A program made the position numbers and the translations under genes. A stretch of 36,475 nucleotides of DNA, from contig CALVJP010000063.1 in the NCBI GenBank assembly GCA_944332215.1, forward strand, positions 1 through 36,475. Reading direction: 5' to 3'. The notes under the pieces are model-generated. The model was given only the letters and a program-made list of their open reading frames with translations, was not told the origin of the DNA and did not search any database. The stretch comes from an uncultured Bacilli bacterium. GTDB lineage: Bacteria; Bacillota_I; Bacilli_A; RF39; UBA660. Positions 1 through 36,080 of the stretch are shown piece after piece (within the stretch, counting starts at the first letter, position 1; every line of letters begins with the position of its first letter).

Positions 1-403
1 TTATTAGCTTTAATTCTTCAATATCATCAACAGATATTATTACATTATTCTTAATTGAGTTGTTTAAATAATCCTTATCTTTTGCTGGACCAGAAGCAAT
101 TATTTTTTTTGTATATTTTAATGCATCTTTTAATTCATAATTACTCGACACTTCAATACCACAATTTTGTTCAGAAGCATATTTCAGTAAGGCATAGCTT
201 TTATTACATTTACATGAAAAAAAGATATTTTCATGCGAGAAATATTGCGTAAAAATACCTTTAAATTTGTTAATATTACTAATAAATTGGTCAGCAAAAA
301 TAACATTGGCTGGAAAGTCAAAAAGAGCAAACAAATTATACACATCAGCTAAACACTCTAAATGTTCACAGTTTTCAGCTTCAACTTTAGAATAATTAAC
401 CAT
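1..403 (-). CDS. LysA-like type III PLP-dependent decarboxylase, N-terminal part (runs off window)
   Basis: This open frame of 134 codons runs off the window start. After about 55 residues it contains FFSCKCNKS followed by a segment ending GIEVSSNYEL, then IIASGPAKD and VIISVDDIEEL. This is the order seen in the PLP-barrel domain of diaminopimelate/ornithine-type (fold III) decarboxylases: YAVKAN lysine, ASxGEL, then the GPxK loop. The lysine in SCKCN would form the PLP Schiff base. The motif departs from canonical LysA, so an amino-acid decarboxylase of a biosynthetic cluster is as likely as lysine biosynthesis. The ATG has an AAAGGAG site 5-prime of it. A possible promoter (TTGACT, 18 bp, TAAAAT) lies between it and the short ORF at 472-522. 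It sits in the AT-rich region that interrupts the SpoVD-type gene. The family call is fairly safe; the substrate is unknown. Confidence 0.7.
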   Translation of the reverse strand, partial: MVNYSKVEAENCEHLECLADVYNLFALFDFPANVIFADQFISNINKFKGIFTQYFSHENIFFSCKCNKSYALLKYASEQNCGIEVSSNYELKDALKYTKKIIASGPAKDKDYLNNSIKNNVIISVDDIEELKLI

Positions 404-471
404 ATACCCTAGCTCTCCTTTCAACATTTGCTATGTATTTTACCAAATTTTGTATAAATTAGTCAACTGTT

Positions 472-522
472 TTACGGTAATACACTTAAAACTAAATTTA
501 AAATTTTATTTTCATATTCCAT
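472..522 (-). CDS. possible 16-residue leader peptide or remnant ORF
   Basis: A tiny frame, MEYENKILNLVLSVLP then TAA, begins 8 nt after an AAAGGA site and directly follows the promoter/palindrome at 537-566. It carries a further copy of the TACACTTAAA half-site (481-490) inside it. It may be a translated leader, a signal-type micro-peptide, or the stump of a deleted regulator. No similarity can be claimed. Support is only the ribosome binding site and the position. Confidence 0.3.
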   Translation of the reverse strand: MEYENKILNLVLSVLP

Positions 523-536
523 GATTGCTTTCCTTT

Positions 537-566
537 TACACTTAAATTATATCATATTTAAGTGTA
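537..566 (-). promoter_or_regulatory. promoter embedded in a perfect inverted repeat
   Basis: TACACTTAAAT (537-547) and ATTTAAGTGTA (556-566) form a perfect 11-bp inverted repeat around an 8-bp spacer. Read on the minus strand, the spacer and right arm hold TGATATAAT, an extended -10. A repressor bound here would cover the -10 element of the promoter driving the short ORF and the decarboxylase. A third half-site lies at 481-490. Confidence 0.6.
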
Positions 567-581
567 TTCGAAAAACTTTTT

Positions 582-3149
582 TTAAATCTTATTAATAAAT
601 TTTGGCTCTGTTGTATAGATTGTATCGTTAAAATCATCTTTTTCAGATTTATAGTGTTCATAAATTTCTTTTATAAATTTCTCGTCTGTTGACAATTCTG
701 TTCCATGTTTTTTTATAAGTTCATCTATATCAATATTAGGTGCTAATGCTTCTATATTTTCTTTTCTAATTGAATATCCATATCCGTTAGTACCTATTGA
801 TCTTGATACTATATCATTTAATAATCTAAAAACATACTTGTCACAAATAATATTTTCTATATAGCATACTGTTTTATCTTTATCGTGATAATATAATCCC
901 CAAATATTTCTATAAGAATAGTTATCATCTGAATACAGATTAATATTATTATTTATAATATTTTGACAACAGTATTTATATGTTTCTTCCAACTTATTAA
1001 TATTTTTGTCATTGCTATTTTGGTCATGTTGCATCCAATATAATATTTGATGCATCTCATTAATCTTATTACCATTTGCAAACATATTACAAAATATAAT
1101 CATATCATCAGATGAAACTTTATTTAATAGATTTGCAATTATAATTATCGTTCTCTGTCTAGCATCTATTTCAAATAAATAAGGTATTGAAGGTAAATTA
1201 TCAAGAAGTTTATAAAGCGAATTTATAACAAAAGAGTACTTGTTTTTTTCTATTTTTTCAACATTCATTTCTAAAACTTCCATAAATACCTTGAGTTCAT
1301 CAGGAGTGTATTTTAATCTAAGCATTTCTAGTTCTTTAAAAATTTTACTTTCGTTTTTGCTATTTCCAATTACTTTGATTAATGATGCAACATCTGTATT
1401 AATTCTAATAAAATCATTACTATTCTTGGTAAAATATAAATCAAAATATCGTATATTATATATTTTGTTTTCTATAACTCCCTTTTTATATTGTTCTTTA
1501 TCGTTGTAATGACTGTTAAATATATCTTGTCCTTCTCTATATTTTTTTACATTGGGAAACAATAACGTTAGAATATTCAAAAATCTTTTATTTTTATCTG
1601 AAGAGAATAATTGTTCAAAATGCTCTTTAGCTGATTTATTTAACCTGTTGTAATCAAGTGTAAATAAATCTGTATCGTATTTTCTATCATCTGAAATATA
1701 AAAGTTTTTATTTTCCCATATATCATAATATAAATTGGGATTTTTACTTTTAATGAATTCTAAATTAATTAAGTCATTTTCATTTAAAAAATCAAGGACA
1801 TTGGAATTGTCTACATGATTATATGTTAATAAAAAATAATTACCAGTTAAAGAGGATAAAATATTGTTTATAAATCTTTTTAACTCTCTAATATCATTAA
1901 ACGTAATGTTACTTAATGAATCTTTTGGCATAATTGGTTCGTTATCATACATTAAATGATTAGATATTGTATTTTTTAAATCTTCTATTTTATTGCTATC
2001 TATTTCAGGAACATCTATTTTTAATTGAACAATCTTATCCATATACTTAACATTTAAACCTTCCGTACCAAAACATTTATCTAATTCTTTTTGGATGATT
2101 GAATCATCATATAATAAAAGATTTATTGTATTTTTTAAGTTTAAAGTAGTTGAAATTATTTTTAGCATAAATTTTATTTTATCAGAATCAATTCTATCTA
2201 AATTATCTATTATTAAAATCATTCTTTTACCGTGTTTAAGTAAATAATTGTTAATAATATTTTCAACTTTAATTTTACTTTGTATATTCTTAATACCTGA
2301 ATTTAAAATTGATTTAAAGGAATTTTTAGAATCAGAAAATACAACATCAATAATTGAATTAACTAATTGGTCTAAATCTTCAATTTCTGGATTTAAATCA
2401 ATATTTATCATAATCTGTTCTACCATTCCTTTTAACATAGCCCTTTCATCATTATATTTCCATGGATCAAATCTAACAATTACAAATAAATCTTCAATAT
2501 TATTGTCTTTTATTAATTTTAAAGCATTATTAATAATTGTTGTTTTTCCACTTCCCCATAGACCATTAAGTCCAATAGTAAACGATCTCGATGGATAACA
2601 ATTTATTATAGTGTTATATAATTGATTTATTACACTTTGTCTATCAAGTAAATCATAACTAACTTCGGCTTCTTCTAGTAATACAATGTTATTTTTTTTA
2701 ATATTAATTTTATTTAAATATATTTCTTGCAAATCAATAACGGTAGGCTTATTTGTTTGAAATTTATTATTAGTTATAAACATTCTCATAATAATAAAAA
2801 ATATAGTTAAAATCATTAATACATATACAAATGTAAATTTATAATTATTTTCAAATGTAGTAAATAAATATAACAATAGCACTCCTTCTGAAATAAACAT
2901 ACTAACTAAAATGACATCTAAAATACTTGTGCTTTTTAATGTTAACATTTTTAATGTTTTTTTATTTAATGGTTCAATCAAAAAAAATATTACTCCTAAA
3001 ACTAAAAGCCACAAATAATTGAGTTCCATTAATTTAGTAAATAAATTGATTTTATCCAAAAAAATAACAATAAAAGCTAACAATATTGATAATTTAATAA
3101 TCAACTTGTATCCATAAACTTTTTTGATTTCTTTGAAATAGCTAATCAT
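582..3149 (-). CDS. KAP-family P-loop NTPase with four N-terminal membrane segments
   Basis: The 855-residue protein has hydrophobic segments at about 17-32, 45-60, 80-97 and 106-124. They are followed by a Walker A GLWGSGKTT (196-204), the KAP-typical FDPWKY (228-233) and a Walker B MILIIDNLDRID (310-321). This is the KAP NTPase architecture (Kidins220/ARMS and PifA family), in which a cytoplasmic ATPase is tethered to the membrane. The remaining 500 or so residues are not assignable; they are Asn/Lys/Ile-rich and resemble C-terminal sensor regions of other KAP proteins. Bacterial KAP proteins such as PifA cause phage exclusion, so a defence role is likely but inferred. The start has AAGGAAGTGG four bases upstream and an extended -10 (TGGTATAAT). 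It lies in the element that interrupts the SpoVD-type gene, and its base composition is more AT-rich than the neighbouring core genes. Confidence 0.85.
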   Translation of the reverse strand: MISYFKEIKKVYGYKLIIKLSILLAFIVIFLDKINLFTKLMELNYLWLLVLGVIFFLIEPLNKKTLKMLTLKSTSILDVILVSMFISEGVLLLYLFTTFENNYKFTFVYVLMILTIFFIIMRMFITNNKFQTNKPTVIDLQEIYLNKINIKKNNIVLLEEAEVSYDLLDRQSVINQLYNTIINCYPSRSFTIGLNGLWGSGKTTIINNALKLIKDNNIEDLFVIVRFDPWKYNDERAMLKGMVEQIMINIDLNPEIEDLDQLVNSIIDVVFSDSKNSFKSILNSGIKNIQSKIKVENIINNYLLKHGKRMILIIDNLDRIDSDKIKFMLKIISTTLNLKNTINLLLYDDSIIQKELDKCFGTEGLNVKYMDKIVQLKIDVPEIDSNKIEDLKNTISNHLMYDNEPIMPKDSLSNITFNDIRELKRFINNILSSLTGNYFLLTYNHVDNSNVLDFLNENDLINLEFIKSKNPNLYYDIWENKNFYISDDRKYDTDLFTLDYNRLNKSAKEHFEQLFSSDKNKRFLNILTLLFPNVKKYREGQDIFNSHYNDKEQYKKGVIENKIYNIRYFDLYFTKNSNDFIRINTDVASLIKVIGNSKNESKIFKELEMLRLKYTPDELKVFMEVLEMNVEKIEKNKYSFVINSLYKLLDNLPSIPYLFEIDARQRTIIIIANLLNKVSSDDMIIFCNMFANGNKINEMHQILYWMQHDQNSNDKNINKLEETYKYCCQNIINNNINLYSDDNYSYRNIWGLYYHDKDKTVCYIENIICDKYVFRLLNDIVSRSIGTNGYGYSIRKENIEALAPNIDIDELIKKHGTELSTDEKFIKEIYEHYKSEKDDFNDTIYTTEPKFINKI

Positions 3150-3182
3150 ACTACCACTTCCTTAATTAGTTATTATACCATG

Positions 3183-3208
3183 AAAAAAGCACATTTCTGT
3201 GCATTTTT
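3183..3208 (-). terminator. intrinsic terminator after the orphan tail frame
   Basis: On the minus strand GCACA-GAAA-TGTGC is followed by six T. It lies just after the stop of the orphan frame at 3210-3304, so that frame once ended a transcribed gene. Confidence 0.6.
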
Positions 3209-3209
3209 C

Positions 3210-3304
3210 TTATATTTCTATAAAACATCTATACTCATACTCAACATCATATTTTTTAGTGTATTTACTATTTATTCCTCTAGTAATAGTAAGGGTATCA
3301 TTTA
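3210..3304 (-). pseudogene. orphan C-terminal coding remnant at the element boundary
   Basis: Directly beyond the truncated PBP, in a different frame, an open stretch begins near SLINDTLTITRG, ends YEYRCFIEI and stops at TAA (3210-3212). A rho-independent terminator follows. There is no start codon or ribosome site of its own. The charged beta-strand pattern is reminiscent of the tail of a large serine recombinase, but about 30 residues are too few to identify. It is most simply read as the 3' end of a gene brought in by, or deleted from, the inserted element. Confidence 0.4.
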
Positions 3305-4561
3305 TTAGACTACAAGGTGAATGGGTGTAACCGAAACGCCCTGTCCAAAAGCGGTTGTCGCCAGTTCTACGGGACCGACTTTATCAATATTAAATAAAAT
3401 TCCCGAGCTTTCACCGTTTAAGTCAATTCCGGTTTTACTGCCAAAACCAAAACGTTTTATATAATCAAATAGCTTCACTTTGCCTAGCTTTTGCCCTAAA
3501 ACTACAAAGCCCGGGTTACAAGAATTTTCCACGACTTCTAAAAATGTTTCATGACCATGGCCACCATGTTTCCAACAATGTAAAGTGGCATTTTCTACTT
3601 TAATACTCCCCGAATCATTATAAGTATCTTTTTCTAAGTCAACTTTGCCTTCTTCTAAGGCAGCCGCTAAAGTAATAATTTTAAAAGTACTTCCAGGCTC
3701 ATAAGTAGCCCAGATCGGTAAATTTCGATTTATCTCTTCCGTAGTATAATCTTGATAATGACTTGGTGAAAAATTAGGACGAGCTGACATTCCTAATATT
3801 TCCCCGCTATTGGGATCCATGGCTAAAGCAATTACCCTGTCGGGGTTATATTTGGTCACAGCGTTGTCCAATTCTCTTTCAATTGAATCTTGAATATCTT
3901 TATTAATGGTCAAAGTCAAATTCATGCCATTTTGAGGTTTTTCATAAACTTCCGATAATTGTAATTTATTACCTTTGGCATCACTAAAATATTTAATTGC
4001 TCCATCCTTTCCTGTTAAATATTTATCATACATGAGTTCAAGTCCACTTAATCCTTGATTATCAATTCCCACATAACCTAAAGTATGAGACATAAAAGTA
4101 TCAAAGGGATAATACCTTTGTGATTCTTTAACTAAATAAACTCCATCAAATTTTAAATTGCGAATTTTATCAGCAACTTCATAAGATAATCTTCGGCCTT
4201 CGGGATGCACTCTTTCAATTGATGTTTTTTTATTAATATGTTTATACATTTCTTCGTAAGTAACCCCTAGAATTTCGGCTAATTTCGTTGCGACTGTTTT
4301 TTTATCTTTTATTTGATTGGGAATAACAACTAACGAAGTCGTAGTAATATTATCGGCCAATATATTGCCACTACGGTCATATATTAAGCCGCGGTCAGCC
4401 TTAACTGGTAAATTGCGGCCCCATAAATTTTCAGCATAATCATTTAATTTACTATAATCTATCACTTGAATATAAAAAACTTTACCGATAATTACCACAA
4501 ACAAAATTATTATAATTACTAAAACGATTTTTATTCGCTTATGAATATTTTTAAAAAACAC
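3305..4561 (-). pseudogene. spoVD: SpoVD-type penicillin-binding protein, truncated before the KTG motif
   Basis: Class B PBP with an N-terminal membrane anchor (10-30), the dimerisation segment with RGLIYDRSGNILA (57-69), active-site STFK (291-294) and SCN (347-349). The stretch from the HCW/GGHG motif (328-336) through FLEVVENSCNPGF to FGQGVSVTPI closely follows SpoVD, the sporulation transpeptidase for spore-cortex peptidoglycan, rather than FtsI. The frame ends three codons after TPIH at TAA. About 150-200 residues of the transpeptidase domain, including the KTG(T) motif, are missing, so it cannot be a working transpeptidase as it stands. The break coincides with the start of accessory DNA. 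Start is GTG with only a weak GGTGATG site. It is either a pseudogene or a gene split by an element whose other end lies outside the window. Confidence 0.8.
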
Positions 4562-4684
4562 GAGTTCATCACCAATTAATTATATGTCCGAGCTTTTATA
4601 AACTTGACAAAAGATAATCACAAGAAATTTTTCAAAAACCTTTACCACGGAAAATAAAAACAAATTATTACTAACCAAAGCGTT

Positions 4685-4705
4685 AAAAAAGGACCTTAAT
4701 GGTCC
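4685..4705 (-). terminator. terminator of the LDH-family gene
   Basis: GGACC-ATTAA-GGTCC followed by six T on the minus strand, three bases after the TAG stop of the dehydrogenase. Confidence 0.8.
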
Positions 4706-4707
4706 GC

Positions 4708-5610
4708 CTATAATATCTTAGTAATAGCTTCTTTAATAATTCTAATCGAATTTTCCATTTTGACTGTTTCCTCAGCATTAAGATCTAAATAAATTCTTTC
4801 CTTAATGCCCTCTTTACCTAAGACACAAGGTGTACTGATATAAACATCATTGTTTTTATCATAATTAGATACGGGCATAATAAACTCTTCATCACTTAAG
4901 ATCGCTTCGGTAATACGAGCTAAACAAATGGCTATGCCATAATAAGTGGAGCCTTTGCGTTCCATAATTTCATAAGCAGCTGTTCGCACTTCCTCTTCCA
5001 TTCTATCCATTTCTTCCAAACTTAAAAACTTAGTAATTTCCTGCATGGCAATATTAGCCTTACTCCAAAAAGCAAACTGTGAATTACCGTGTTCCCCAAT
5101 CACATAAGCATGAACACTTTTTGGACTAATGTCTAATTTTTCGGAAATCAAATAACTTAATCTTGATGAATCTAAACTAGTCCCACTACCAATAACTCTA
5201 TTATATGGTAAGCCAGAATAGTATTGAGTCAAATATGTCATCACATCTAAAGGATTACTAGCTACTAAAAATATCCCATCAAATCCACTATCCATAACTT
5301 TAGCCACAATTTCTTTAAATAAAATATTATTTTTCTCTAAATCCTTTAACCGGTCATTCATCGTTTGAGGAATCCCCGCCGTGATACAAACAATATCAGC
5401 ATCATGACAATCACTATAATCGCCAACTTTAAGTTTAAGATTATTAGGGGCATAATTTAAAGTATGACATAAATCCATTAATTCCCCTTCTATTCTTTCC
5501 TCATTTACATCAATCATTACGATTTCATCAACATGAGTGTTTTGGTTCATTAAAGCAAATATATAGGCCATTCCCACATTACCACAACCAACTACGACTA
5601 TTTTTTCCAA
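4708..5610 (-). CDS. L-lactate dehydrogenase-family (L-2-hydroxyacid) dehydrogenase
   Basis: NAD-dependent LDH/MDH-family enzyme of 300 residues that would reduce pyruvate or a related 2-oxoacid to the L-hydroxyacid and regenerate NAD+ in fermentation. Visible are the Rossmann loop VVGCGNVG (6-13), Asp34 for NAD, a substrate loop AGIPQTMNDRL with Gln82 and Arg87, N119 in ASNP, D147 and R150 in LDSSR, and catalytic H174 in GEHGNS. Gln rather than Arg in the loop favours lactate-type over malate-type specificity. The loop between Gln82 and Arg87 is one residue shorter than in Bacillus LDH, so an L-2-hydroxyisocaproate-type substrate range is possible. Starts at TTG with GGGAGTGAGG upstream. It is monocistronic, with its own terminator. 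Confidence 0.85.
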   Translation of the reverse strand: MEKIVVVGCGNVGMAYIFALMNQNTHVDEIVMIDVNEERIEGELMDLCHTLNYAPNNLKLKVGDYSDCHDADIVCITAGIPQTMNDRLKDLEKNNILFKEIVAKVMDSGFDGIFLVASNPLDVMTYLTQYYSGLPYNRVIGSGTSLDSSRLSYLISEKLDISPKSVHAYVIGEHGNSQFAFWSKANIAMQEITKFLSLEEMDRMEEEVRTAAYEIMERKGSTYYGIAICLARITEAILSDEEFIMPVSNYDKNNDVYISTPCVLGKEGIKERIYLDLNAEETVKMENSIRIIKEAITKIL

Positions 5611-5675
5611 AAAACCTCACTCCCATCTTTATATTTTTTATTATACCATGATTTAGACTGCTTAAACTGAAAAAG

Positions 5676-5699
5676 GCAAAAAAAAGGACTCACGTCCTT
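5676..5699 (-). terminator. terminator of the surface-protein gene
   Basis: AAGGAC-GTGA-GTCCTT followed by eight T on the minus strand; the first stem bases include the TAA stop. Confidence 0.8.
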
Positions 5700-6630
5700 A
5701 ATTTTGTTTTACTAATTTTCTGGTGCCATAAGCCATAGCGCCAATACCAGCAATTGCCATAACGATATATAATGCTATACCATCAGCAGTTTCTGGATTT
5801 TTGATTTCTTCTTTTTTGTCAGTGTTAGGTTGATCATTATCAGTTGATTCCTCAACTTTTGGAGCTGAAGTAAATTCATTTCCATCAATTTCGACTATTG
5901 AACCTTCAGCAATGGTGTTTGATTTAGCAACAACAGTGCCATCAGCATTATTAATAGTTACAACATCACCATCTAAAGCAACTTTATTAGCTGAAGTTTC
6001 TGTATTTTCCACTACAAATTTAGTAACTTGGGCATTGTCGATATACACAGCATCTACTTGAGCAGTTGTATCGATAGTACCATCCATTATTAAAGCGGGT
6101 TCACCAGTAACATTTTCTCCGACTCCAAACTCAATTCCAGCTTTATTATCTACCATGGTTAAATCTTTAATTGTCAAAGTACCACCATTAATTAAAGCAG
6201 CTCCATAGGCACAATTTTGAATTGTAACTTTATCTAATATAACTTTACCACCATTATATGCCTGAACACCATATTTGGGTGAATTTTCCAAAGTAATGTT
6301 TTCTAAAGTAAGGGTAGCATTTGCTAAAGCTGTAATAATTGATCTATTGCCAGATCCTGCTTCAATAGTACTTGTAAGCGAATGCCCATTTCCTTTAATT
6401 GTTGTTTCTTTATCCGTGCTAAGTGGAGAGGTTACGGTAATCGAATCGGTTAATTCAATTTCCCCACCATTAGCTAAAGCAGCTACAAGTTCAGCTTCAT
6501 TAGCCACTTGCACTCCAGCGGCATCTGCATTGGCAAATGGAATACACATAGCACAGAATAGTAAAACACCTAACACACCTTTTAGCTTTCTTGACATTTT
6601 CCTATCAATCCTTTCTATAAACTTACCCAT
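5698..6630 (-). CDS. sortase-anchored surface protein with beta-helix-like repeats
   Basis: The 310-residue product has a signal peptide (about 12-38, cleavage near FANADAAG). A region at about 55-250 of regular Ile/Leu/Val-Thr/Asn strands with inter-strand Asn/Gly turns is typical of pectin-lyase-like right-handed beta-helices. A Glu/Lys/Asp linker follows, then the C-terminal sorting signal NPETAD (278-283), a membrane segment (284-302) and a basic tail RKLVKQ. NPxTx is the motif type read by class B sortases, and a class B-like sortase lies 2 kb away (8662-9513). An in-frame ATG at 6597, preceded by GAAAGGA and AGG, gives a more usual signal peptide and may be the true start. Upstream is an extended -10 (TGATATAAT, 6651-6659). 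No enzymatic residues are recognised; adhesion or wall binding is a guess. Confidence 0.8.
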   Translation of the reverse strand: MGKFIERIDRKMSRKLKGVLGVLLFCAMCIPFANADAAGVQVANEAELVAALANGGEIELTDSITVTSPLSTDKETTIKGNGHSLTSTIEAGSGNRSIITALANATLTLENITLENSPKYGVQAYNGGKVILDKVTIQNCAYGAALINGGTLTIKDLTMVDNKAGIEFGVGENVTGEPALIMDGTIDTTAQVDAVYIDNAQVTKFVVENTETSANKVALDGDVVTINNADGTVVAKSNTIAEGSIVEIDGNEFTSAPKVEESTDNDQPNTDKKEEIKNPETADGIALYIVMAIAGIGAMAYGTRKLVKQN

Positions 6631-13385: not shown

Positions 13386-13396
13386 GGCTTCTTTTA
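13371..13396. terminator. bidirectional terminator hairpin
   Basis: AAAGAAGCC (13371-13379) and GGCTTCTTT (13386-13394) form a perfect 9-bp stem with a 6-base loop holding the DUF1113 stop. It lies between convergent genes; T runs are short on both strands. Confidence 0.75.
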
Positions 13397-15577
13397 TTGT
13401 TCCAAATTATCAACATCATATTTTTCTTCCAATTTTATTTTAACCGTACTATCATTAACTAAGGCACCGGGCTCTATAGATTGCTCTTTAACGTAACCAT
13501 AACCTTCAATTTCATACTTATAGCCTAAAGCTTCCATTAAATTAATGACTTCAGAACGAGAATACCCATTTAAATCAGGCATTTTATTTTGTCCTCCATT
13601 AGTAATTAGGAATACTTTATCATATGATAGAATTTTTTCCCCTTGGTTAGGATACTGATTAATGATTTTATCACCATCACCAATGACAACAGTTTTAATA
13701 TTACTCGCTTCCAACTCTTTTTTAACTTCAGTCAAGTTTTTATTAATATACGATTTTAAGGTCAGTGACGTCACATTACTATTGGTATTCGTCGTAGTAA
13801 ACATGCCTTTATATTTGGCAATATTCTTCATTAAATTAGTGACAGCATCACTTAGCATAATCGAAGTCCCTACATTAGGTCTTTTGACCGCGGCATAAAT
13901 AATAATTTCCGGATCATCTTTCGGAAACATACCAGCGAACGAATAAATATAGGCATTATCCCCTTTTAAATATCCGCCTTTTTCCGAAGCGATTTGGGCA
14001 GTTCCCGTTTTACCAATAACTTCAAAACCGTCTATTTTATAGCGTCTCCCCGTCGCCAAATTATCCTCGCTATTAACGACATCATACATTAAATCTTTAA
14101 TTTGATCAATCGTACTTTGACTGACCACCGCCTCCGATTTTTCCACCTTACGCTTATAAGTCGTTTTTCCCGTATTTGGATTAACTATTTTTGACACAAT
14201 ATGGGGCGTTAAAGCTTTACCATCATTAGCAATTATCGATAAAGCCTTTAAATGTTGAACCACCGTAGTATTAATACCTTGTCCAAAAGCGGCATTAGCC
14301 ACCTCTACGGGGTATTTAAAGCCTAATTTCCCACTGGCCTCACGTGCTAAATCAATGCCTGTAGTCTTGCCAAAACCATACTTATTAAAACACTCTTTTA
14401 AATCATTTTTATCGATGAATTTATTTATCATCGAGCTAACGCCCACATTACTAGAATATTCAAAACCTTTGTCATAAGTAATTGTCCCAAATCCTGTATT
14501 ATTCCAGTCTCTAATGGTTGCATCAGCAATATCAATGCTTCCTGATTTAAACGTATCTGTGCCATTATAAGTTCCTTTTTCAATTGCACACATATAAGTA
14601 TAAATCTTCATCGTACTACCGGGCTCAAACGCATTTGACACTAGTAAATTTTCATAATTAGTAATATCCCGTGTATTTGGATTAAACGATGGCGTTGAAG
14701 CCGAAGCTAAAATATCTCCCGTTTTAGCATCCATCACAGAAATAATCGCCCAATCAGGCTCATATTTCTCATCAATAGCTTTCACTTCCGTTTCCGTAAA
14801 TCTTTGAATATTGGAATCTAAAGTTAAATAAATATTACTGCCATCAATGGCATCTATTCGTTCTTCCGCCGTATCTGGAATTTTATAGCCAAATCGATCC
14901 TGCTGATATTTTTGATAACCATCTGTTCCTTTTAAAATGTTGTCAAACTTAGCCTCAATACCAAGTTCACCATCAATAGTCGTCGTCACTTTACCAGATT
15001 TACTGACTTTTTCATTGGTTTTAGCATAGCCTAAAATATAAGAGGCAAAATCACCATTTGGATAATAACGTTTATACGTTTCTGTAAAATCAATTCCTGG
15101 TAAATTAAGGGCTACAATTTCATCCTTTTTAAGTTCGGTAATATTTTTCCCAGCCAGTCCTAATTCCACTTGATATTTGTCCTCATCTTTCCCCTTTTGT
15201 AAACGTTCCTGAATACTACTAGCATCGGTTTCTAAAACCTCAGCTAAAGCTTTAGCTGTTCCCTCAATATCTTTAACATAATTAATCTTACTACCACTGC
15301 TACGAGATTCATCTAAATAAGCAATAATAGTATAAGAAGTCACGTTATGAGCTAAAACATCGCCCTCCATATCATAAATAGTTCCCCTTTTTGCAATTAA
15401 AGTTTTTGACACTGTATTACGATTAGAAGCAAACTGTTGAATATCGTGACCATTAACCGTTGGTGATAAGGCTAAATAACAATAACGACCAAAAAGAATA
15501 ATTAAGCAACCAAAAAAAACAAAAAAGACTTTTTTCGGAAATTTCCAATTGTTACTTTTTTGTTTTTTATTTGCCAC
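13394..15577 (-). CDS. ftsI: division penicillin-binding protein (FtsI/PBP2B type) with PASTA domains
   Basis: Class B transpeptidase of 727 residues for septal peptidoglycan. It has a membrane anchor (16-37), a dimerisation domain with RGTIYDMEGDVLA, STMK (321-324), SSN (375-377) and KTGT (523-526), all intact. Two PASTA-like segments follow (about 600-660 and 662-720). It lies directly after ftsL in the mraZ-rsmH-ftsL-PBP order, which fixes it as the division PBP. The start is GTG, 4 bases after GAGGTGTTAAA begins. The chain continues no further: mraY and murD are not downstream, and the convergent DUF1113 gene ends the cluster. Confidence 0.95.
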   Translation of the reverse strand: MANKKQKSNNWKFPKKVFFVFFGCLIILFGRYCYLALSPTVNGHDIQQFASNRNTVSKTLIAKRGTIYDMEGDVLAHNVTSYTIIAYLDESRSSGSKINYVKDIEGTAKALAEVLETDASSIQERLQKGKDEDKYQVELGLAGKNITELKKDEIVALNLPGIDFTETYKRYYPNGDFASYILGYAKTNEKVSKSGKVTTTIDGELGIEAKFDNILKGTDGYQKYQQDRFGYKIPDTAEERIDAIDGSNIYLTLDSNIQRFTETEVKAIDEKYEPDWAIISVMDAKTGDILASASTPSFNPNTRDITNYENLLVSNAFEPGSTMKIYTYMCAIEKGTYNGTDTFKSGSIDIADATIRDWNNTGFGTITYDKGFEYSSNVGVSSMINKFIDKNDLKECFNKYGFGKTTGIDLAREASGKLGFKYPVEVANAAFGQGINTTVVQHLKALSIIANDGKALTPHIVSKIVNPNTGKTTYKRKVEKSEAVVSQSTIDQIKDLMYDVVNSEDNLATGRRYKIDGFEVIGKTGTAQIASEKGGYLKGDNAYIYSFAGMFPKDDPEIIIYAAVKRPNVGTSIMLSDAVTNLMKNIAKYKGMFTTTNTNSNVTSLTLKSYINKNLTEVKKELEASNIKTVVIGDGDKIINQYPNQGEKILSYDKVFLITNGGQNKMPDLNGYSRSEVINLMEALGYKYEIEGYGYVKEQSIEPGALVNDSTVKIKLEEKYDVDNLEQ

Positions 15578-15590
15578 TTTAACACCTCAT

Positions 15591-15887
15591 TTATTCATTA
15601 ACGATAATGATATTATCATTATTATACGCTAGTCCCATTTCTTTGACAACACCTTTAACGTTTTCAAACGAAGTAAGTTCATTTACTTTCATTGTCAAAC
15701 TTTCATTTTTTTTCGTTTGACTATCGATATTATATTTAACTTCCTCGATACTCATCTTAAGTTCACTGATTGAAGCCCCGCAGAAAGTCTTAATTCCAAG
15801 TGAAAAAACAAATGCAAAAACAATTACCATATATAGTAATCTTTCACCTTTAGTAATTTTTGCTTTTCTTACCTTCTTTTTGGCCAT
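15591..15887 (-). CDS. ftsL: cell division protein FtsL
   Basis: A short bitopic protein: basic N-terminus (KKKVRKAK), one membrane segment (about 17-37), then a heptad-patterned extracellular coil of about 60 residues. The position between rsmH and the division PBP identifies it, since FtsL sequences are poorly conserved. An in-frame GTG three codons earlier (15896) is an alternative start; AAGGAAGGA lies upstream of both. FtsL forms a complex with FtsB/DivIC and recruits FtsW-FtsI to the septum. Confidence 0.85.
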   Translation of the reverse strand: MAKKKVRKAKITKGERLLYMVIVFAFVFSLGIKTFCGASISELKMSIEEVKYNIDSQTKKNESLTMKVNELTSFENVKGVVKEMGLAYNNDNIIIVNE

Positions 15888-15905
15888 ATTATCCACGGTC
15901 CTTCC

Positions 15906-16817
15906 TTACATTTTTTCTATCACTCTTAATCGGGCACTACGGGCACGGGGGTTTTGTAAAATTTCTTCCTCACAAGGTACAATATTGGCCACCACTTTAA
16001 ACTTTGGCTGATACGCCTCAGGAATAATTGGTAACTTAGCCAGTTCTTTTGGCACCTTACTCACTTCATTAAAAATTTGTTTACAAATTCTATCTTCCAA
16101 AGAATGAAATGTAATAACACATATGCGGCCTTTAGGCTTTAATAAATCCAAAGCATCTTTTAAAGCCGTTTCGAACACTTCTAATTCGTTATTAACTTCA
16201 ATTCTAATCGCTTGAAAAACTTTTCGCGCCGGATGACCTTTTTTGCGGTATTTTTCAGGTACACTATTTTTGATTATCTCAGCTAATTCAAGCGTTGTCA
16301 CAATTCTTTTGTTTTCACGGTATTTAACGATAGCTTCAGCAATACTACTCGCGTATTTCTCTTCACCATAACGATAAAATATTTTAGTTAATTTTTCATA
16401 GCTATAATTATTAACTACCTCGTCAGCTTTTAACTGATCATTTTGATTCATGCGCATATCCAGCGCAGCATCCTTATGAAAACTAAAACCACGCTCCGCC
16501 TCATCGAGTTGAGGCGATGACACCCCTAAATCAAATAAAATTCCGTTAACTTTAACTTTCCTTTTATTCATTTCTTCTTTTATATTTTTGAAATTAGTTT
16601 TAATAATTTCAAAATTAAAGCCAGCCTCTTCCAATCTTTTTTTAGCATTCTTTATAGCTTGATCATCTTGATCAAAAGCATAGAGAAAACCTTTTGGAAT
16701 TTTTTTTAAAATTTGGCTGCTATGGCCGCCATACCCTAGAGTACAATCGATAATAATACTATCTTCTTGTAAATTCAAATATCTAATACTTTCTTCTAAT
16801 AACACACTAGTATGCAT
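15906..16817 (-). CDS. rsmH: 16S rRNA (cytosine1402-N4)-methyltransferase
   Basis: The 303-residue SAM-dependent enzyme (MraW/RsmH) modifies the ribosomal P-site. It carries the SAM loop DCTLGYGGHS (about 24-33), FDLGVSSPQLD (about 96-106), HPARKVFQAIRIEVNNE and CVITFHSLEDR, all standard for the family. ATG with AGGAGGATTT upstream. It is 8 bases after mraZ and 9 or more before ftsL in one operon. Confidence 0.97.
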   Translation of the reverse strand: MHTSVLLEESIRYLNLQEDSIIIDCTLGYGGHSSQILKKIPKGFLYAFDQDDQAIKNAKKRLEEAGFNFEIIKTNFKNIKEEMNKRKVKVNGILFDLGVSSPQLDEAERGFSFHKDAALDMRMNQNDQLKADEVVNNYSYEKLTKIFYRYGEEKYASSIAEAIVKYRENKRIVTTLELAEIIKNSVPEKYRKKGHPARKVFQAIRIEVNNELEVFETALKDALDLLKPKGRICVITFHSLEDRICKQIFNEVSKVPKELAKLPIIPEAYQPKFKVVANIVPCEEEILQNPRARSARLRVIEKM

Positions 16818-16825
16818 AAATCCTC

Positions 16826-17260
16826 CTAGATATTTAAATTAGCTGAAAATAAATTATCGGCCATTTCTGATAGACTATCTTCATTTTGGGCAATAAAGTT
16901 ATTCCATCGTTCTTCACTCCAAATTTCTAAACGGTCCCCCACGCCGATCACGACACACTCTTTTTTTAAATCAGCATAGTTCATGAGGGGAGCAGCAATA
17001 TTAATACGCCCTTGCTTATCAAACTCCAAATTTACCGCTCCTGATAAGAAAAAACGCATAAAATTACGGGCTTCTTTTACATTCGGTAACTCTTGGTATT
17101 TACTAACAATATTTTCCCAAGTATTTTTAGGGTAAATAAACAAGCATCCATCAAGACCTCTAGTGATTATAAAGTTTTCGCCAATTTCATAACGAATTTT
17201 TGATGGAATAGTTAATCTTCCTTTGTCATCTAAGGTATGATGATATTCACCCATGAACAT
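16826..17260 (-). CDS. mraZ: transcriptional regulator MraZ
   Basis: It begins MFMGEYHHTLDDKGRL, the typical MraZ N-terminus, and has two SpoVT/AbrB-like repeats (DKGRLTIPSKIR and DKQGRINIAAPL). MraZ forms a ring that binds repeated TGGGN boxes before its own gene and controls the division and cell-wall cluster. The start is set at the ATG giving MFMGEY; the longer frame reads through the box region. Two consensus boxes plus two degenerate ones lie directly upstream (17267-17301). Confidence 0.96.
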   Translation of the reverse strand: MFMGEYHHTLDDKGRLTIPSKIRYEIGENFIITRGLDGCLFIYPKNTWENIVSKYQELPNVKEARNFMRFFLSGAVNLEFDKQGRINIAAPLMNYADLKKECVVIGVGDRLEIWSEERWNNFIAQNEDSLSEMADNLFSANLNI

Positions 17261-17266
17261 AAAATC

Positions 17267-17301
17267 ACCCACTTTCCCCCACAGTGTTACACCGTATACC
17301 A
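17267..17301 (-). promoter_or_regulatory. MraZ-binding box array
   Basis: On the minus strand TGGGT (17267-17271) and TGGGG (17277-17281) are spaced exactly 10 bp. TGTAA (17287-17291) and TGGTA (17297-17301) continue the same 10-bp phase in degenerate form. The array lies between the promoter and the mraZ start, as in other bacteria where MraZ represses itself. Confidence 0.8.
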
Positions 17302-17303
17302 CT

Positions 17304-31670: not shown

Positions 31671-33917
31671 TTATTTTATAACTTCTTCAATAGGCCTCCA
31701 TACGTTTCTATTCATCACATTTTCATCCCATTCGGTATTAGATATATAAATTTGTGTACCAACAGCTCTGACAAATCCCCACTTAATATTAGAATGCTTT
31801 GAGGCATATTCCTTTAGAGCCTTAAATTTATTTTTAGCATATCGATCAATGTTATTTGAATTTCCATCAGCAGTTAAGCCACCTTTAGCCTCTATTATCC
31901 AAACGTCACCATTATTAAGTTGAATTACATAATCTGGATAAAAATTATTTCTTCTAAATGCCCGTCTATATACTATACTAAAATAGTCATCTCCTTTATC
32001 CCCATTTTTATATATCCATTTAACCAAATCATAACTTTCACACCATTTTTCAAACTCAATTTCGGTAAATGTTCTATTTGGATTTATTAAAATATTATTA
32101 CCATATTCAGCAAAAACATTTTTATTCATAATCTTAGTACTATCGATTTTCTTTTGCTGTTTATAATACTGTTTATTAGGAATAACCCATTCTTTTTTTA
32201 ATATTTCAGTTTCTTTAATATCAGCAATTTGATCTTGACTTATCTTGCTAAACACGTCAATAAGTCTTTCCCTATTGTTTACCAAAAAAGCATTATATTC
32301 CCTTAATTTCATATCCTTTAATATTTTATTTTCATGTTCAAAATCTTTTTCTTCTTGAGACAATAAAGACATTTGCATATCTTCAGGTCCAAATAAAATC
32401 CTTAATGCATTATTAGATATATTTTCATCTATGCCCATGGCCCTAGCAATTCTTCTTTTGGCATCTCTAATTATAAAACCATCATCATGATTATTTATTT
32501 CGTGTTCTCCGCCAAACACTTTATTTAAAGAAAGCATATCATGTGTAGTTCTAGCAACTCCTTCTATAGCTTCAATTTTTAATTTAGTACTAAATATATA
32601 TCCTTTTGCTACTTCTAATTCATGTTTATCCAATTCACCATTTTCATTAATATCACATTCTTCAAGCATAGTTTTTCTTGCAATATCCACCACTGCTTTG
32701 GGATTAACAGCGTATCTATCGCTGCCATCCAAGGATTCTTTTTCTAAAAAAAATGATGGAGCATTATCTTTTTTCTTGTATTGATATGTATAAAATGAAT
32801 CACTTAAACTACTAGTTAAGCCTTCTTTAAATTCACTATCTAATGTATAAACATAGCAATTATCTAATAATTCATTATCATAGTGCTTTCTTTCTGGCAT
32901 TCTTCTAATTCTGCCAACTGTTTGAATATTAAACTTTTCTGTTCCCCCTTCACGAAGTTTAACCAATATTTTAGCTCGAGGACAATCCCATCCTGTGGCA
33001 ATTGCTTGTTTAAACAATAGAAAAGCATATTGTCCATTTAATTTTTTTATTTCTTCAGGGTTGTCAGGATGATCTCCACTAAACCAGGAAGTAACTAAAC
33101 CAGATCTTTCAGAATATCCCATATTAGTTAACTCTTGTTTAATTCTGCTGATCCACTCTTCAGAGCCATTGGGAAATTGGATTAATACAAGAGGTCTTAT
33201 ATTTATGCCTAACCTATCATATTCAGCCTGAATTTCTTTTCTTTTTTTATCTGCTAAATTTAATAATAATAGATCATCGTCTAAATTATTATTATCCTCA
33301 ATCGCTTGAGATAAACCATTATTAATTGAAATACCTGAAGCGATTAAGCCCGAAGCAATAACCTCATTATCTTCAATAATTTCTGTATAGTTTCCTTTAC
33401 TAACTGGAGTAGCAGAAATTCTTAGAACATGGATTGGCTCTATATTCGCGATATAATTATTTGCTGTCTCTCTATATTTATGTTCTTCATCAATAATCAT
33501 AAATATATCTATATTGCTATTATGGCAATAGTGCACTTTAGCCATTAAATCCTTATATTCACCTTCTCGCAAAACAATGTTAGATGAGCGATTTATTTTA
33601 TCCCAGTTGATAAAATAAACACTGCCCGCTGGATTTGATTCATTTATAAAATCATAAACATCTCCATATTGAATTCCAGATGTTACTTCCACAAAGCTTT
33701 CTTGTGATTGCTTTTGTAAACCTCCAGCCCCTGGACAAAGCCAGAGAAATACTGTATTAGGATTTTCATCTAAATAATCATCTATAAATTTACAAGTTAA
33801 AACCGTTTTCCCTGATCCAGTTGGAGCATAAAGAACGATTTCTTCATTATCGGCACATTTCATCAACAAATTCTCTTCATGTTTTTCTTGAAATTTCAAT
33901 AAATTAATTTTAAACAT
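31671..33917 (-). CDS. res: type III restriction endonuclease subunit Res
   Basis: The 748-residue SF2 helicase-nuclease has Walker A APTGSGKT (31-38), DEEH box IIDEEHK (141-147), SAT (168-170) and motif VI QTVGRIRRMPER. A C-terminal PD-(D/E)XK nuclease has YPDY (Asp662) followed by WIIEAKGG (Glu676, Lys678). This is the order of type III Res proteins, which cut after ATP-dependent communication between two unmethylated sites and require Mod. It is shorter than EcoP15I Res (about 970), mainly in the middle. The ATG overlaps the mod stop (TAATG), so expression is translationally coupled. Confidence 0.93.
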   Translation of the reverse strand: MFKINLLKFQEKHEENLLMKCADNEEIVLYAPTGSGKTVLTCKFIDDYLDENPNTVFLWLCPGAGGLQKQSQESFVEVTSGIQYGDVYDFINESNPAGSVYFINWDKINRSSNIVLREGEYKDLMAKVHYCHNSNIDIFMIIDEEHKYRETANNYIANIEPIHVLRISATPVSKGNYTEIIEDNEVIASGLIASGISINNGLSQAIEDNNNLDDDLLLLNLADKKRKEIQAEYDRLGINIRPLVLIQFPNGSEEWISRIKQELTNMGYSERSGLVTSWFSGDHPDNPEEIKKLNGQYAFLLFKQAIATGWDCPRAKILVKLREGGTEKFNIQTVGRIRRMPERKHYDNELLDNCYVYTLDSEFKEGLTSSLSDSFYTYQYKKKDNAPSFFLEKESLDGSDRYAVNPKAVVDIARKTMLEECDINENGELDKHELEVAKGYIFSTKLKIEAIEGVARTTHDMLSLNKVFGGEHEINNHDDGFIIRDAKRRIARAMGIDENISNNALRILFGPEDMQMSLLSQEEKDFEHENKILKDMKLREYNAFLVNNRERLIDVFSKISQDQIADIKETEILKKEWVIPNKQYYKQQKKIDSTKIMNKNVFAEYGNNILINPNRTFTEIEFEKWCESYDLVKWIYKNGDKGDDYFSIVYRRAFRRNNFYPDYVIQLNNGDVWIIEAKGGLTADGNSNNIDRYAKNKFKALKEYASKHSNIKWGFVRAVGTQIYISNTEWDENVMNRNVWRPIEEVIK

Positions 33918-35869
33918 TATTCTGCTGCCTCCTTTAATTCTTGACTAAAATATTCCCCTGGAAGATATTTAAAATCTTTTTCACTTAGCAATTTGATTTC
34001 ATTTGCATCAAATATAATATTTTGATTTACCCAAAGTTTTTTTATTTTTTTAAATTTATTTTCATCAAGTACATATTTTTTAAAATCATCTCTATTAAAA
34101 ATCACCACATATCTTTCATTATCTATATCAATTGCATTTTCTAATTCAATCATTTCTTTAATATAAAAACACAAAGCATTACTTAATAAATAGTCTTTAG
34201 GTTTCCTAGGGGTCCAATCACATTTAAAATATTTTAAGTTATGCGGAATACCTTTAATTTTTTCCTTTTTTTGGTTTAAACCAATTATTTTGATCGAGTT
34301 ATTTTCATAGACTTTTTTTACCTCATCATACTTAGATAAATTTTCATTGATTGTTCTTTCGATTTTGTTTTTTTCTTCCTCTATTTTATTCAAAAATTGA
34401 TTGTTAAATTTTTTTTCATATAAAATTTCTTTGAAATCTTTTGAATGAGTATAACCTTTAATAACAGCTAACAATCTAGGATATGTTATAGATGAACATA
34501 TTCCATATTTTTCCTCATATTCCATATATTTTTGAGGATAATCTTCAGGTTTCCCATATATTTTTTTAAACTCTTTTTCTTTTTTTTCGCCGATAGCATT
34601 ATTTGTAACTAAAATATATTTTCTATTCCCGCCATACAGTTTATTAAGAAGTTCAACAGCGTGCCCCGTGGTGCCAGAGCCAGCAAAAAAGTCTAAAATA
34701 ATAGCATCGCGTTTATGTCTTGTTGTTGCAAATAAACACTCATAAACATTCCAAAGAGACTTTGGAAAATCAAAATCATTATTAGGTACCATGCTATTGA
34801 TTAGTTGAGTGCCATACTCATTTGCATCATATTTTTTATCCGTCCAAACCGTTTTATAAGGAGCATAGGGTTTCCCTAAATAAATATCCCAAACACCATT
34901 TTTTTCTTCAGCCTTTAAAATATTTACAATTGATTCGACAGTTTGTCTAGCATATCGCCATTTTCTTTCAACATTATTATTATCAACTGGGTAAATTGTA
35001 ATTTCCCCATTGGAATTAACTTCATTTTTCTGAGGGTGAATATTATCATCCAGTACATCGTCAAAGCCCACAATTTTGCCATTTTTAATCCTAATGCCAT
35101 AAAAACAATTTTTAGCATCGGTCCTTAACGACTCACTTCCCCAATTTCTAAGTGGACTCCAATCGACTTCCGTTTCTTCAACCTCCTTATCGCAAATAAC
35201 TTTATAATGTTTTTTATAAACAAATAATGCATATTCATTTGTATAAGAAAAGTTATCTCCTTGTATTCCTCTAGGATTTTGAACAATAGATATAACATCA
35301 ACTTGATAAGAAATGCCAAAAACACTCTCATCTTCTATTAATAGTTTTAAGGTGGCAAGTTCATTTTCATCTATAGCACAAATTAAAACACCATCATCTT
35401 TTAGTAATTTTTTAGCAAGTCTTAAGCGTTTACTCATCATTGATAACCATTTACTATGTCTATAATTGTCATTGCTGTCTACATAATCATTATTGTATTT
35501 CCAGTTTTTAGCCCCCGTATTATATGGCGGATCGATGTATATACAATCTATTTTTCCTCGATGGGTTTTTTGAAGAAGATATAATGCTTGTAAATTATCT
35601 CCTTCTATTATGAAATTATAAGGTTGGTTTTGATCTTCACAAATTTGTCTTGTTGCATCAGCACAAAATACAGGAATATTTTCTTTTAAATGCTCGTCCA
35701 CTTCTTCCATATGTTCCTCAAATATTAACCCAAACCTTTTACTTGTTAATGCATTTTCTATTTCATTAAAAGCTCTTATTGATTTATCATCCATATGTGC
35801 CTTTTTTAAAATTTCTAAAAATTTTATCATTTCATCTCTTTTAATTTTAGATAAGTTAGTTGTTGCCAT
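33917..35869 (-). CDS. mod: type III DNA methyltransferase subunit Mod
   Basis: The 650-residue N6-adenine methyltransferase of beta class has catalytic DPPYNTG (about 113-119) before the SAM motif LDFFAGSGTTGHA (about 392-404). A variable region between (about 180-330) is the target-recognition domain. A C-terminal part of about 250 residues interacts with Res. Start is the ATG after GAGGTGG; it lies 14 bases inside the end of the controller gene. The recognition sequence cannot be deduced. No simple-sequence repeat typical of phase-variable mod genes is present. Confidence 0.94.
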   Translation of the reverse strand: MATTNLSKIKRDEMIKFLEILKKAHMDDKSIRAFNEIENALTSKRFGLIFEEHMEEVDEHLKENIPVFCADATRQICEDQNQPYNFIIEGDNLQALYLLQKTHRGKIDCIYIDPPYNTGAKNWKYNNDYVDSNDNYRHSKWLSMMSKRLRLAKKLLKDDGVLICAIDENELATLKLLIEDESVFGISYQVDVISIVQNPRGIQGDNFSYTNEYALFVYKKHYKVICDKEVEETEVDWSPLRNWGSESLRTDAKNCFYGIRIKNGKIVGFDDVLDDNIHPQKNEVNSNGEITIYPVDNNNVERKWRYARQTVESIVNILKAEEKNGVWDIYLGKPYAPYKTVWTDKKYDANEYGTQLINSMVPNNDFDFPKSLWNVYECLFATTRHKRDAIILDFFAGSGTTGHAVELLNKLYGGNRKYILVTNNAIGEKKEKEFKKIYGKPEDYPQKYMEYEEKYGICSSITYPRLLAVIKGYTHSKDFKEILYEKKFNNQFLNKIEEEKNKIERTINENLSKYDEVKKVYENNSIKIIGLNQKKEKIKGIPHNLKYFKCDWTPRKPKDYLLSNALCFYIKEMIELENAIDIDNERYVVIFNRDDFKKYVLDENKFKKIKKLWVNQNIIFDANEIKLLSEKDFKYLPGEYFSQELKEAAE

Positions 35870-36080
35870 TTTTATCCACCTCACGTTTTACTTCTACAAT
35901 ATCGTTTAAATTGCATTCTAAAATGGCACATACTTTAACTAATGTTTCCAATGATACCGATTCATTTTTCCCCATTTTGGCCATTGCATTTGTACTGATT
36001 TTAGCTCTCTTACAAAGTTCTGTTTTATTAATATTTTTATCAATCATTAATTTCCAAAGCTTATTATAATCTAACACCAT
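35856..36080 (-). CDS. XRE-type controller of the type III R-M operon
   Basis: The 74-residue regulator begins MVLDYNKLWKLMIDKNINKT. A HTH follows (KTELCKRAKISTNAMAKMGK, then SVSLETLVKVCAILECNLND), of the HTH_26/YozG type. GGAAGGTTTAAAT precedes the ATG. Its last codons overlap mod by 14 bp, and it is first in the operon. A palindrome before the promoter (36153-36167) is a likely binding site. Small regulators of this kind delay or limit R-M expression on entry into a new host, as C proteins do in type II systems; that role is inferred. Confidence 0.85.
   Translation of the reverse strand: MVLDYNKLWKLMIDKNINKTELCKRAKISTNAMAKMGKNESVSLETLVKVCAILECNLNDIVEVKREVDKNGNN

Follow-up and report, generated by a model that had tools for sequence, protein, structure and literature searches.

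A spoVD gene divided by a large serine recombinase element in an uncultured RF39 bacterium: a probable skin-like system

A gene for a SpoVD-type class B penicillin-binding protein (PBP) breaks off inside its transpeptidase domain in the window, the whole 36,475-nucleotide stretch of DNA analysed here. Is such a gene lost, or is it kept in pieces that a sporulating cell could rejoin? The first-pass annotation had proposed a split gene of the skin type, with simple inactivation by a mobile island as the alternative. The window is contig C63 of genome G000 (1.08 Mb, 74 contigs, 86% complete), in which Spo0A, SpoIVA (itself split) and SpoVE/FtsW are present. The order RF39 is predicted to sporulate, the organism here being uncultured, and spoVD is among the genes reported as reduced or absent in RF39 (PMC10868615).

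Both halves of spoVD and the boundaries of the element

The open reading frame (ORF) that contains the 5′ exon (Table 1) encodes 418 aa with GSTFK (SxxK) and NSCN (SxN) and without KTG, as the first-pass annotation had read it. It covers the first two thirds of a class B PBP from the N-terminus, reaches GQGVSVTPI and then ends with HLVV and a stop. These last codons are element DNA and the host sequence stops at the core CA; the AT-rich accessory DNA does begin exactly at the break. The predicted KTG-containing half was found on another contig of the same genome (G000:C57:5150-5812, minus strand), where a Pfam transpeptidase search of the genome located the missing profile positions 164-299. 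This half reads VTAVSAAINGGILYKPYIVK...KTGTAQ... with a PASTA-like tail, and is followed by mraY and then by an ftsW/spoVE-like gene. Immediately before this half, and overlapping it in a different frame, is the C-terminal end of a large serine recombinase (LSR), a type of gene that had been predicted as well; its C-terminal 216 aa are present, and its N-terminus lies past the contig end and is absent from the assembly.

When joined at the core CA, the halves give an in-frame protein of 634 aa, which matches TIGR02214 (spoVD_pbp) over its full length with 755.3 bits, above the curated equivalog cut-off of 688. The intact PBP of the window reaches only 358 bits with the same model, and the 86% complete assembly yielded no other gene of SpoVD type. 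With the 3′ half present and no second intact spoVD found, neither condition that the first-pass annotation had named as refuting a split gene holds. The presence of this intact PBP together with ftsL, rsmH and mraZ nearby places the split spoVD among wall and division genes.

Table 1. Positions of the features in the window
Feature	Position	Strand	Remark
Intervening mobile element (one end; continues beyond the contig)	1..3317	.	junction homologous to whole elements
Cargo: PLP-dependent decarboxylase-like N-terminal part (Orn_Arg_deC_N)	2..427	(-)	cut by contig end
Cargo: membrane KAP-family P-loop NTPase, PifA/QatA-like (PADLOC)	582..3149	(-)	
Hairpin GCACA-TTTC-TGTGC + T-run	3189..3208	.	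probable terminator between cargo and exon
Element-side inverted-repeat arm GTCTAATAAATG	3299..3310	(-)	mirror arm at the C57 end: CATTTATTAGA
Crossover dinucleotide CA	3318..3319	(-)	codon positions 1 and 2 of the Gln following GQGVSVTPI; TG on the plus strand
5′ exon of spoVD (SxxK + SxN)	3318..4561	(-)	ORF 3305-4561 includes element-derived tail codons
Other class B PBP, PBP2X/PbpB-like, intact, dcw region	13394..15577	(-)	
dcw neighbour ftsL	15591..15896		
dcw neighbour rsmH	15906..16817		
dcw neighbour mraZ	16826..17302		
Type III restriction-modification pair (Res + Mod)	31671..35884	(-)	

With a slash at the boundary, the window junction reads CA/CCTTGTAGTCTAATAAATG (ATT-CA/CCTTGTAGTCTAATAAATG with its 5′ side), and the junction on C57 reads TTTATTAGAAAGCGATA/CA-GCAAGTAACT. 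The arms are inverted repeats symmetric about CA in our element, in the loci L021, L041, L043, L054 (of one genome with L182) and L062, and in genome G022; attL and attR thus have the short common core and inverted-repeat arms of a skin-like element. A repeated core had been placed near CTTGTAGT, and this location was right to within 10 bp; the crossover is the CA dinucleotide rather than a repeat at CTTGTAGT. Another core, GTA, was suggested by by-eye comparison of the ends and was ruled out in favour of CA by arm symmetry, intact genes and tandem joints. Joining at CA restored a full SpoVD ORF with SxxK, SxN and KTG in each case compared at this site (site A below), and all three motifs are found in the joined ORFs of whole elements where a single element splits the gene.

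Tandem elements offer a natural test of these boundaries. Joints of the form right-end/CA/left-end occur between tandem elements at three loci (L077, L038 and L059), and that of L077 has a right end 96% identical to the C57 end and a left end 87.5% identical to window positions 3224-3319. The att boundaries are therefore confirmed independently. The L077 junction (4096-5750) lies behind a broken LSR copy, in a metagenome-assembled genome (MAG) that also has a site-A spoVD element (L024); its contig ends do not overlap, which speaks for a tandem array containing a broken LSR and against a circle. Neither an excised circle nor a rejoined allele was found for any one strain, and the exact attP pattern had no hit in 386 genomes of the family or in viral contigs, attP-like joints being present only in tandem arrays. 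Assemblies from growing cells may be unable ever to sample the excised state.

Whole elements with homologous junctions lie on one contig at L021, L041, L043, L054 and L062, and the full LSR homologue of L021 has 559 aa with Resolvase, Recombinase and zinc-ribbon domains. The only genes recurring throughout the site-A elements read are the LSR and, directly upstream, a helical ORF of 68 aa (conserved in 31 aligned loci, AlphaFold pLDDT 79, no Pfam match), which is a candidate recombination directionality factor (RDF). Cargo varies, comprising the KAP NTPase of our element, AbiEi/AbiEii, PDC-S01, Fic, a HAD hydrolase and others, of which several are defence-like. Prophage identity was rejected: none of the whole site-A elements read contained a recognisable phage gene, and viral contigs included no relative of the LSR. 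The candidate RDF/LSR pair is preceded by a highly conserved leader, seen at L022:8574-8713 and in 24 homologues (alignment A2), in which an invariant terminator hairpin overlaps an alternative pairing (TTGAAAACTTAATA...TATTAAGTTTTCAA); the one example scanned, that of L021, has no Rfam match. This leader is possibly an attenuator or operator that controls excision.

Recurrence of insertions across the family

Searching GTDB genomes with the C-terminal part of the LSR yielded 62 loci, almost all of them in Bacilli MAGs; at 56 of these the LSR lies directly against the spoVD 3′ half, at the identical base. An identical junction in dozens of independent genomes excludes a chance origin. The 3′ exons compared, our own included, are all open over their entire length (57/57; a contig end truncates one of them). 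Identity between LSRs hardly correlates with identity between exons (Spearman 0.08, 1,596 pairs), and in two pairs of near-identical hosts the exon and downstream DNA are 98% identical in nucleotides, yet the elements at the site differ, with LSRs only 90% identical. These observations indicate that elements move horizontally and are replaced, and that the host gene persists; vertical ancient inheritance of one element is ruled out by the decoupled histories of LSR and exon. At the level of sequence comparison, integration is thus shown to be site-specific, precise to the base and reversible in evolution.

Hand tallies show how common the split is. Of 58 genomes sampled at one per genus of the family, 29 have an intact spoVD, 19 a split one and 9 none, with 1 ambiguous; among 40 genomes of our own genus the gene is intact in 25, split in 7, fragmentary in 4 and missing in 4. 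Three sites are used, each by a separate LSR subfamily: site A, that of our genome, with core CA just after GQGVSVTPI; site B with core AA within the Asn codon of SxN; and site C with core AA within the Lys codon of SxxK. Elements whole on single contigs measure 3.7-7.9 kb at site A, 6.5-15.5 kb at B and 5.8 kb at C. Two elements occupy one spoVD in G050 (B and A), and in G023 and G056 three elements (C, B and A) leave the gene in four pieces. The identical three sites were found in a further 70 genomes, all of the same family, the order-level search having yielded genomes of this family only. Stray pieces covering only the spoVD stretch between sites B and A were also seen in L306 (G074:C1, 6237-6461), 3.6 kb upstream of an intact spoVD, and in L293 (G077:C41, 284-508); such a piece could be a relic, a captured mini-exon or a strain mixture.

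Other sporulation genes are split as well. Residues 1-406 of SpoIVA lie on G000:C35:8182-9399 (minus strand) of our genome, and the SpoIVA_C end is on C39 (3487-3762), immediately following a different LSR with 45% identity (locus L016, G000:C39:1857-3765). The contigs on either side of the split spoIVA also carry several small serine recombinase genes. Relatives show a second spoIVA site near residue 120, and the largest intervening stretch seen separates spoIVA halves by 44 kb on one contig (G073:C9:17442-62999). Start-less fragments behind LSRs in relatives, with truncation judged by reading, include SpoIVA, CotE (two), FtsW/SpoVE and a CwlD-like amidase, as well as a manganese-catalase/CotJC-like protein and LysM-repeat and collagen-like proteins, the last two being only possibly spore proteins. 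A single clear non-spore target was seen, a ZIP transporter, and many LSRs of these genomes have no identifiable split neighbour gene. The first-pass annotation had therefore been right about the split in spoVD, and the single split gene that it described is part of a family-wide pattern with three spoVD sites and further split sporulation genes.

Competing explanations and proposed mechanism

The two halves lie on different contigs of a 74-contig assembly, which would suit a misjoining of unrelated contigs by assembly or binning. However, exon, element, LSR and exon lie on a single contig with the same junction bases in five other genomes, and the junctions recur in dozens of independent assemblies, so that we find an artefact scarcely credible. 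Plain inactivation of spoVD in lineages that are losing sporulation deserves more attention, since the gene is broken as sequenced, spoVD is absent from 9 of the 58 genomes and sporulation has been lost several times in related orders (PMC10868615). Against it, a decayed exon appears in 0 of 57 site-A loci, and insertion is repeated at the identical base. Values of omega for close pairs of split exons are mostly 0.02-0.11, and those within the genus are 0.02-0.08 from split to nearest intact gene (0.052 for ours), equal to the 0.03-0.07 between intact genes, which we take as absence of decay and not as function while split, because dS is saturated in deeper pairs and insertion ages are not fixed. 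Intact spoVD in close relatives means that each insertion may be young. SpoVD and SpoIVA also occur together (48 genomes with both, 1 and 2 with a single one, 7 with neither; Fisher P = 9e-7), and split genomes, unlike those without spoVD, keep spo0A (strong Spo0A_C match in 17/19) and spoIVA (SpoIVA_C in 19/19). Intact constrained exons and retained sporulation genes thus disfavour the simple inactivation that had been left as the alternative, and we consider it improbable.

A more serious competitor treats the insertions as ordinary integrative elements that use spoVD and spoIVA codons as att sites, with rare excision that serves transfer and is untied to sporulation, and with spores formed by the few element-free cells. 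Elements at the site turn over rapidly by horizontal transfer, close relatives have intact alleles, tandem arrays occur and cargo is often defence-like, as in genomic islands, all of which agrees with it. It does not explain why the identifiable split targets are nearly all spore genes. Moreover, two interrupted sporulation genes per genome and three elements per gene occur, and with several elements per genome or gene, rare independent excisions would almost never yield a sporulating cell. Hence we regard this explanation as unlikely, though well ahead of inactivation.

With reasonable confidence we favour a skin-like system in which the mother cell would excise the gene-intervening element, a reading to which both halves, the LSR and the matching junctions that rejoin in frame lend support. 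The LSR-carrying element would integrate by attP x attB recombination at CA inside spoVD and split the gene between its SxN and KTG motifs. During sporulation, the LSR and a directionality factor, for which the 68-aa ORF is a candidate, would excise the element in the mother cell; spoVD would be rejoined, the cortex could be made, and the forespore would retain the element. In B. subtilis, spoVD, spoIVA, spoVE, cwlD and cotE are sigma-E mother-cell genes (PMC517825), and established targets of intervening elements are likewise mother-cell genes (PMC4191935). Because the assignable targets here (spoVD, spoIVA, spoVE-like, cotE and cwlD-like) correspond to genes of this class, the element would be lost only from a dying cell.

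Relation to known intervening elements

The spoVD elements would work like skin, gin or vfbin, and they are small, non-phage and often carry defence-type cargo. Like skin in sigK of B. subtilis and C. difficile (skinCd, PMC5025042), they split a sporulation gene in frame and encode an LSR. Skin reconstitutes sigK in frame by excision, a step that we infer for the spoVD elements. Differences from skin are the target (spoVD and spoIVA instead of sigK), the absence of recognised phage genes in the elements read, the LSR beside the 3′ half and the several LSR subfamilies that strike one gene. The gin element in gerE of B. cereus (PMC5595907) is similar in being non-phage, in its serine recombinases, in its horizontal spread and in its defence-type cargo (R-M in gin), whereas its target differs and it has 28.6 kb and three recombinases, against 3.7-7.9 kb with one LSR and the 68-aa upstream ORF at site A. 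Sporulation genes interrupted by serine-recombinase elements are also known from vfbin (spoVFB), vrin (spoVR), SP-beta (spsM, PMC4191935) and yin (yabG, PMC10747680); each of these four was described at one site in one strain or species, in contrast to the three sites per gene, the several genes and the family-wide occurrence here.

Reported targets of intervening elements are sigK, spoVFB, spoVR, spsM, gerE and yabG. ICEBs1 is an ICE with a tyrosine recombinase. It has been found inside spoVD as well, but as a laboratory secondary-site insertion from which excision was undetectable (PMC3715440), and this was the only interruption of spoVD or spoIVA by such an element that searches of the open-access literature found. 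Known intervening elements are scattered single cases. Here a single gene, spoVD, is struck at three sites that coincide with catalytic motifs or lie close to them, and about 40% of the sampled genera possessing the gene are affected; an occurrence on this scale is not known to have been reported before. The family is also a natural source of site-specific serine integrases, together with att sites and a candidate directionality factor.

These results suggest a rule that integrase elements settle in genes of terminal cells, since loss there costs nothing. They may also partly explain why spoVD appeared reduced or absent in an annotation survey of RF39 (PMC10868615), as the gene may exist in pieces. 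We lean, by a narrow margin of belief, towards a broader reading in which sporulation in this family of gut Bacilli with reduced genomes would be a DNA-assembly programme: several mother-cell genes would be kept in pieces and rejoined by separate recombinases in each mother cell, and the pieces would be held by competing, horizontally moving and often defence-carrying integrase elements, in spoVD at as many as three positions on or close to catalytic motifs, in spoIVA at two sites, and in the cotE, spoVE-like and cwlD-like genes of relatives. To form a spore, the cell probably has to excise element DNA and rejoin its genes.
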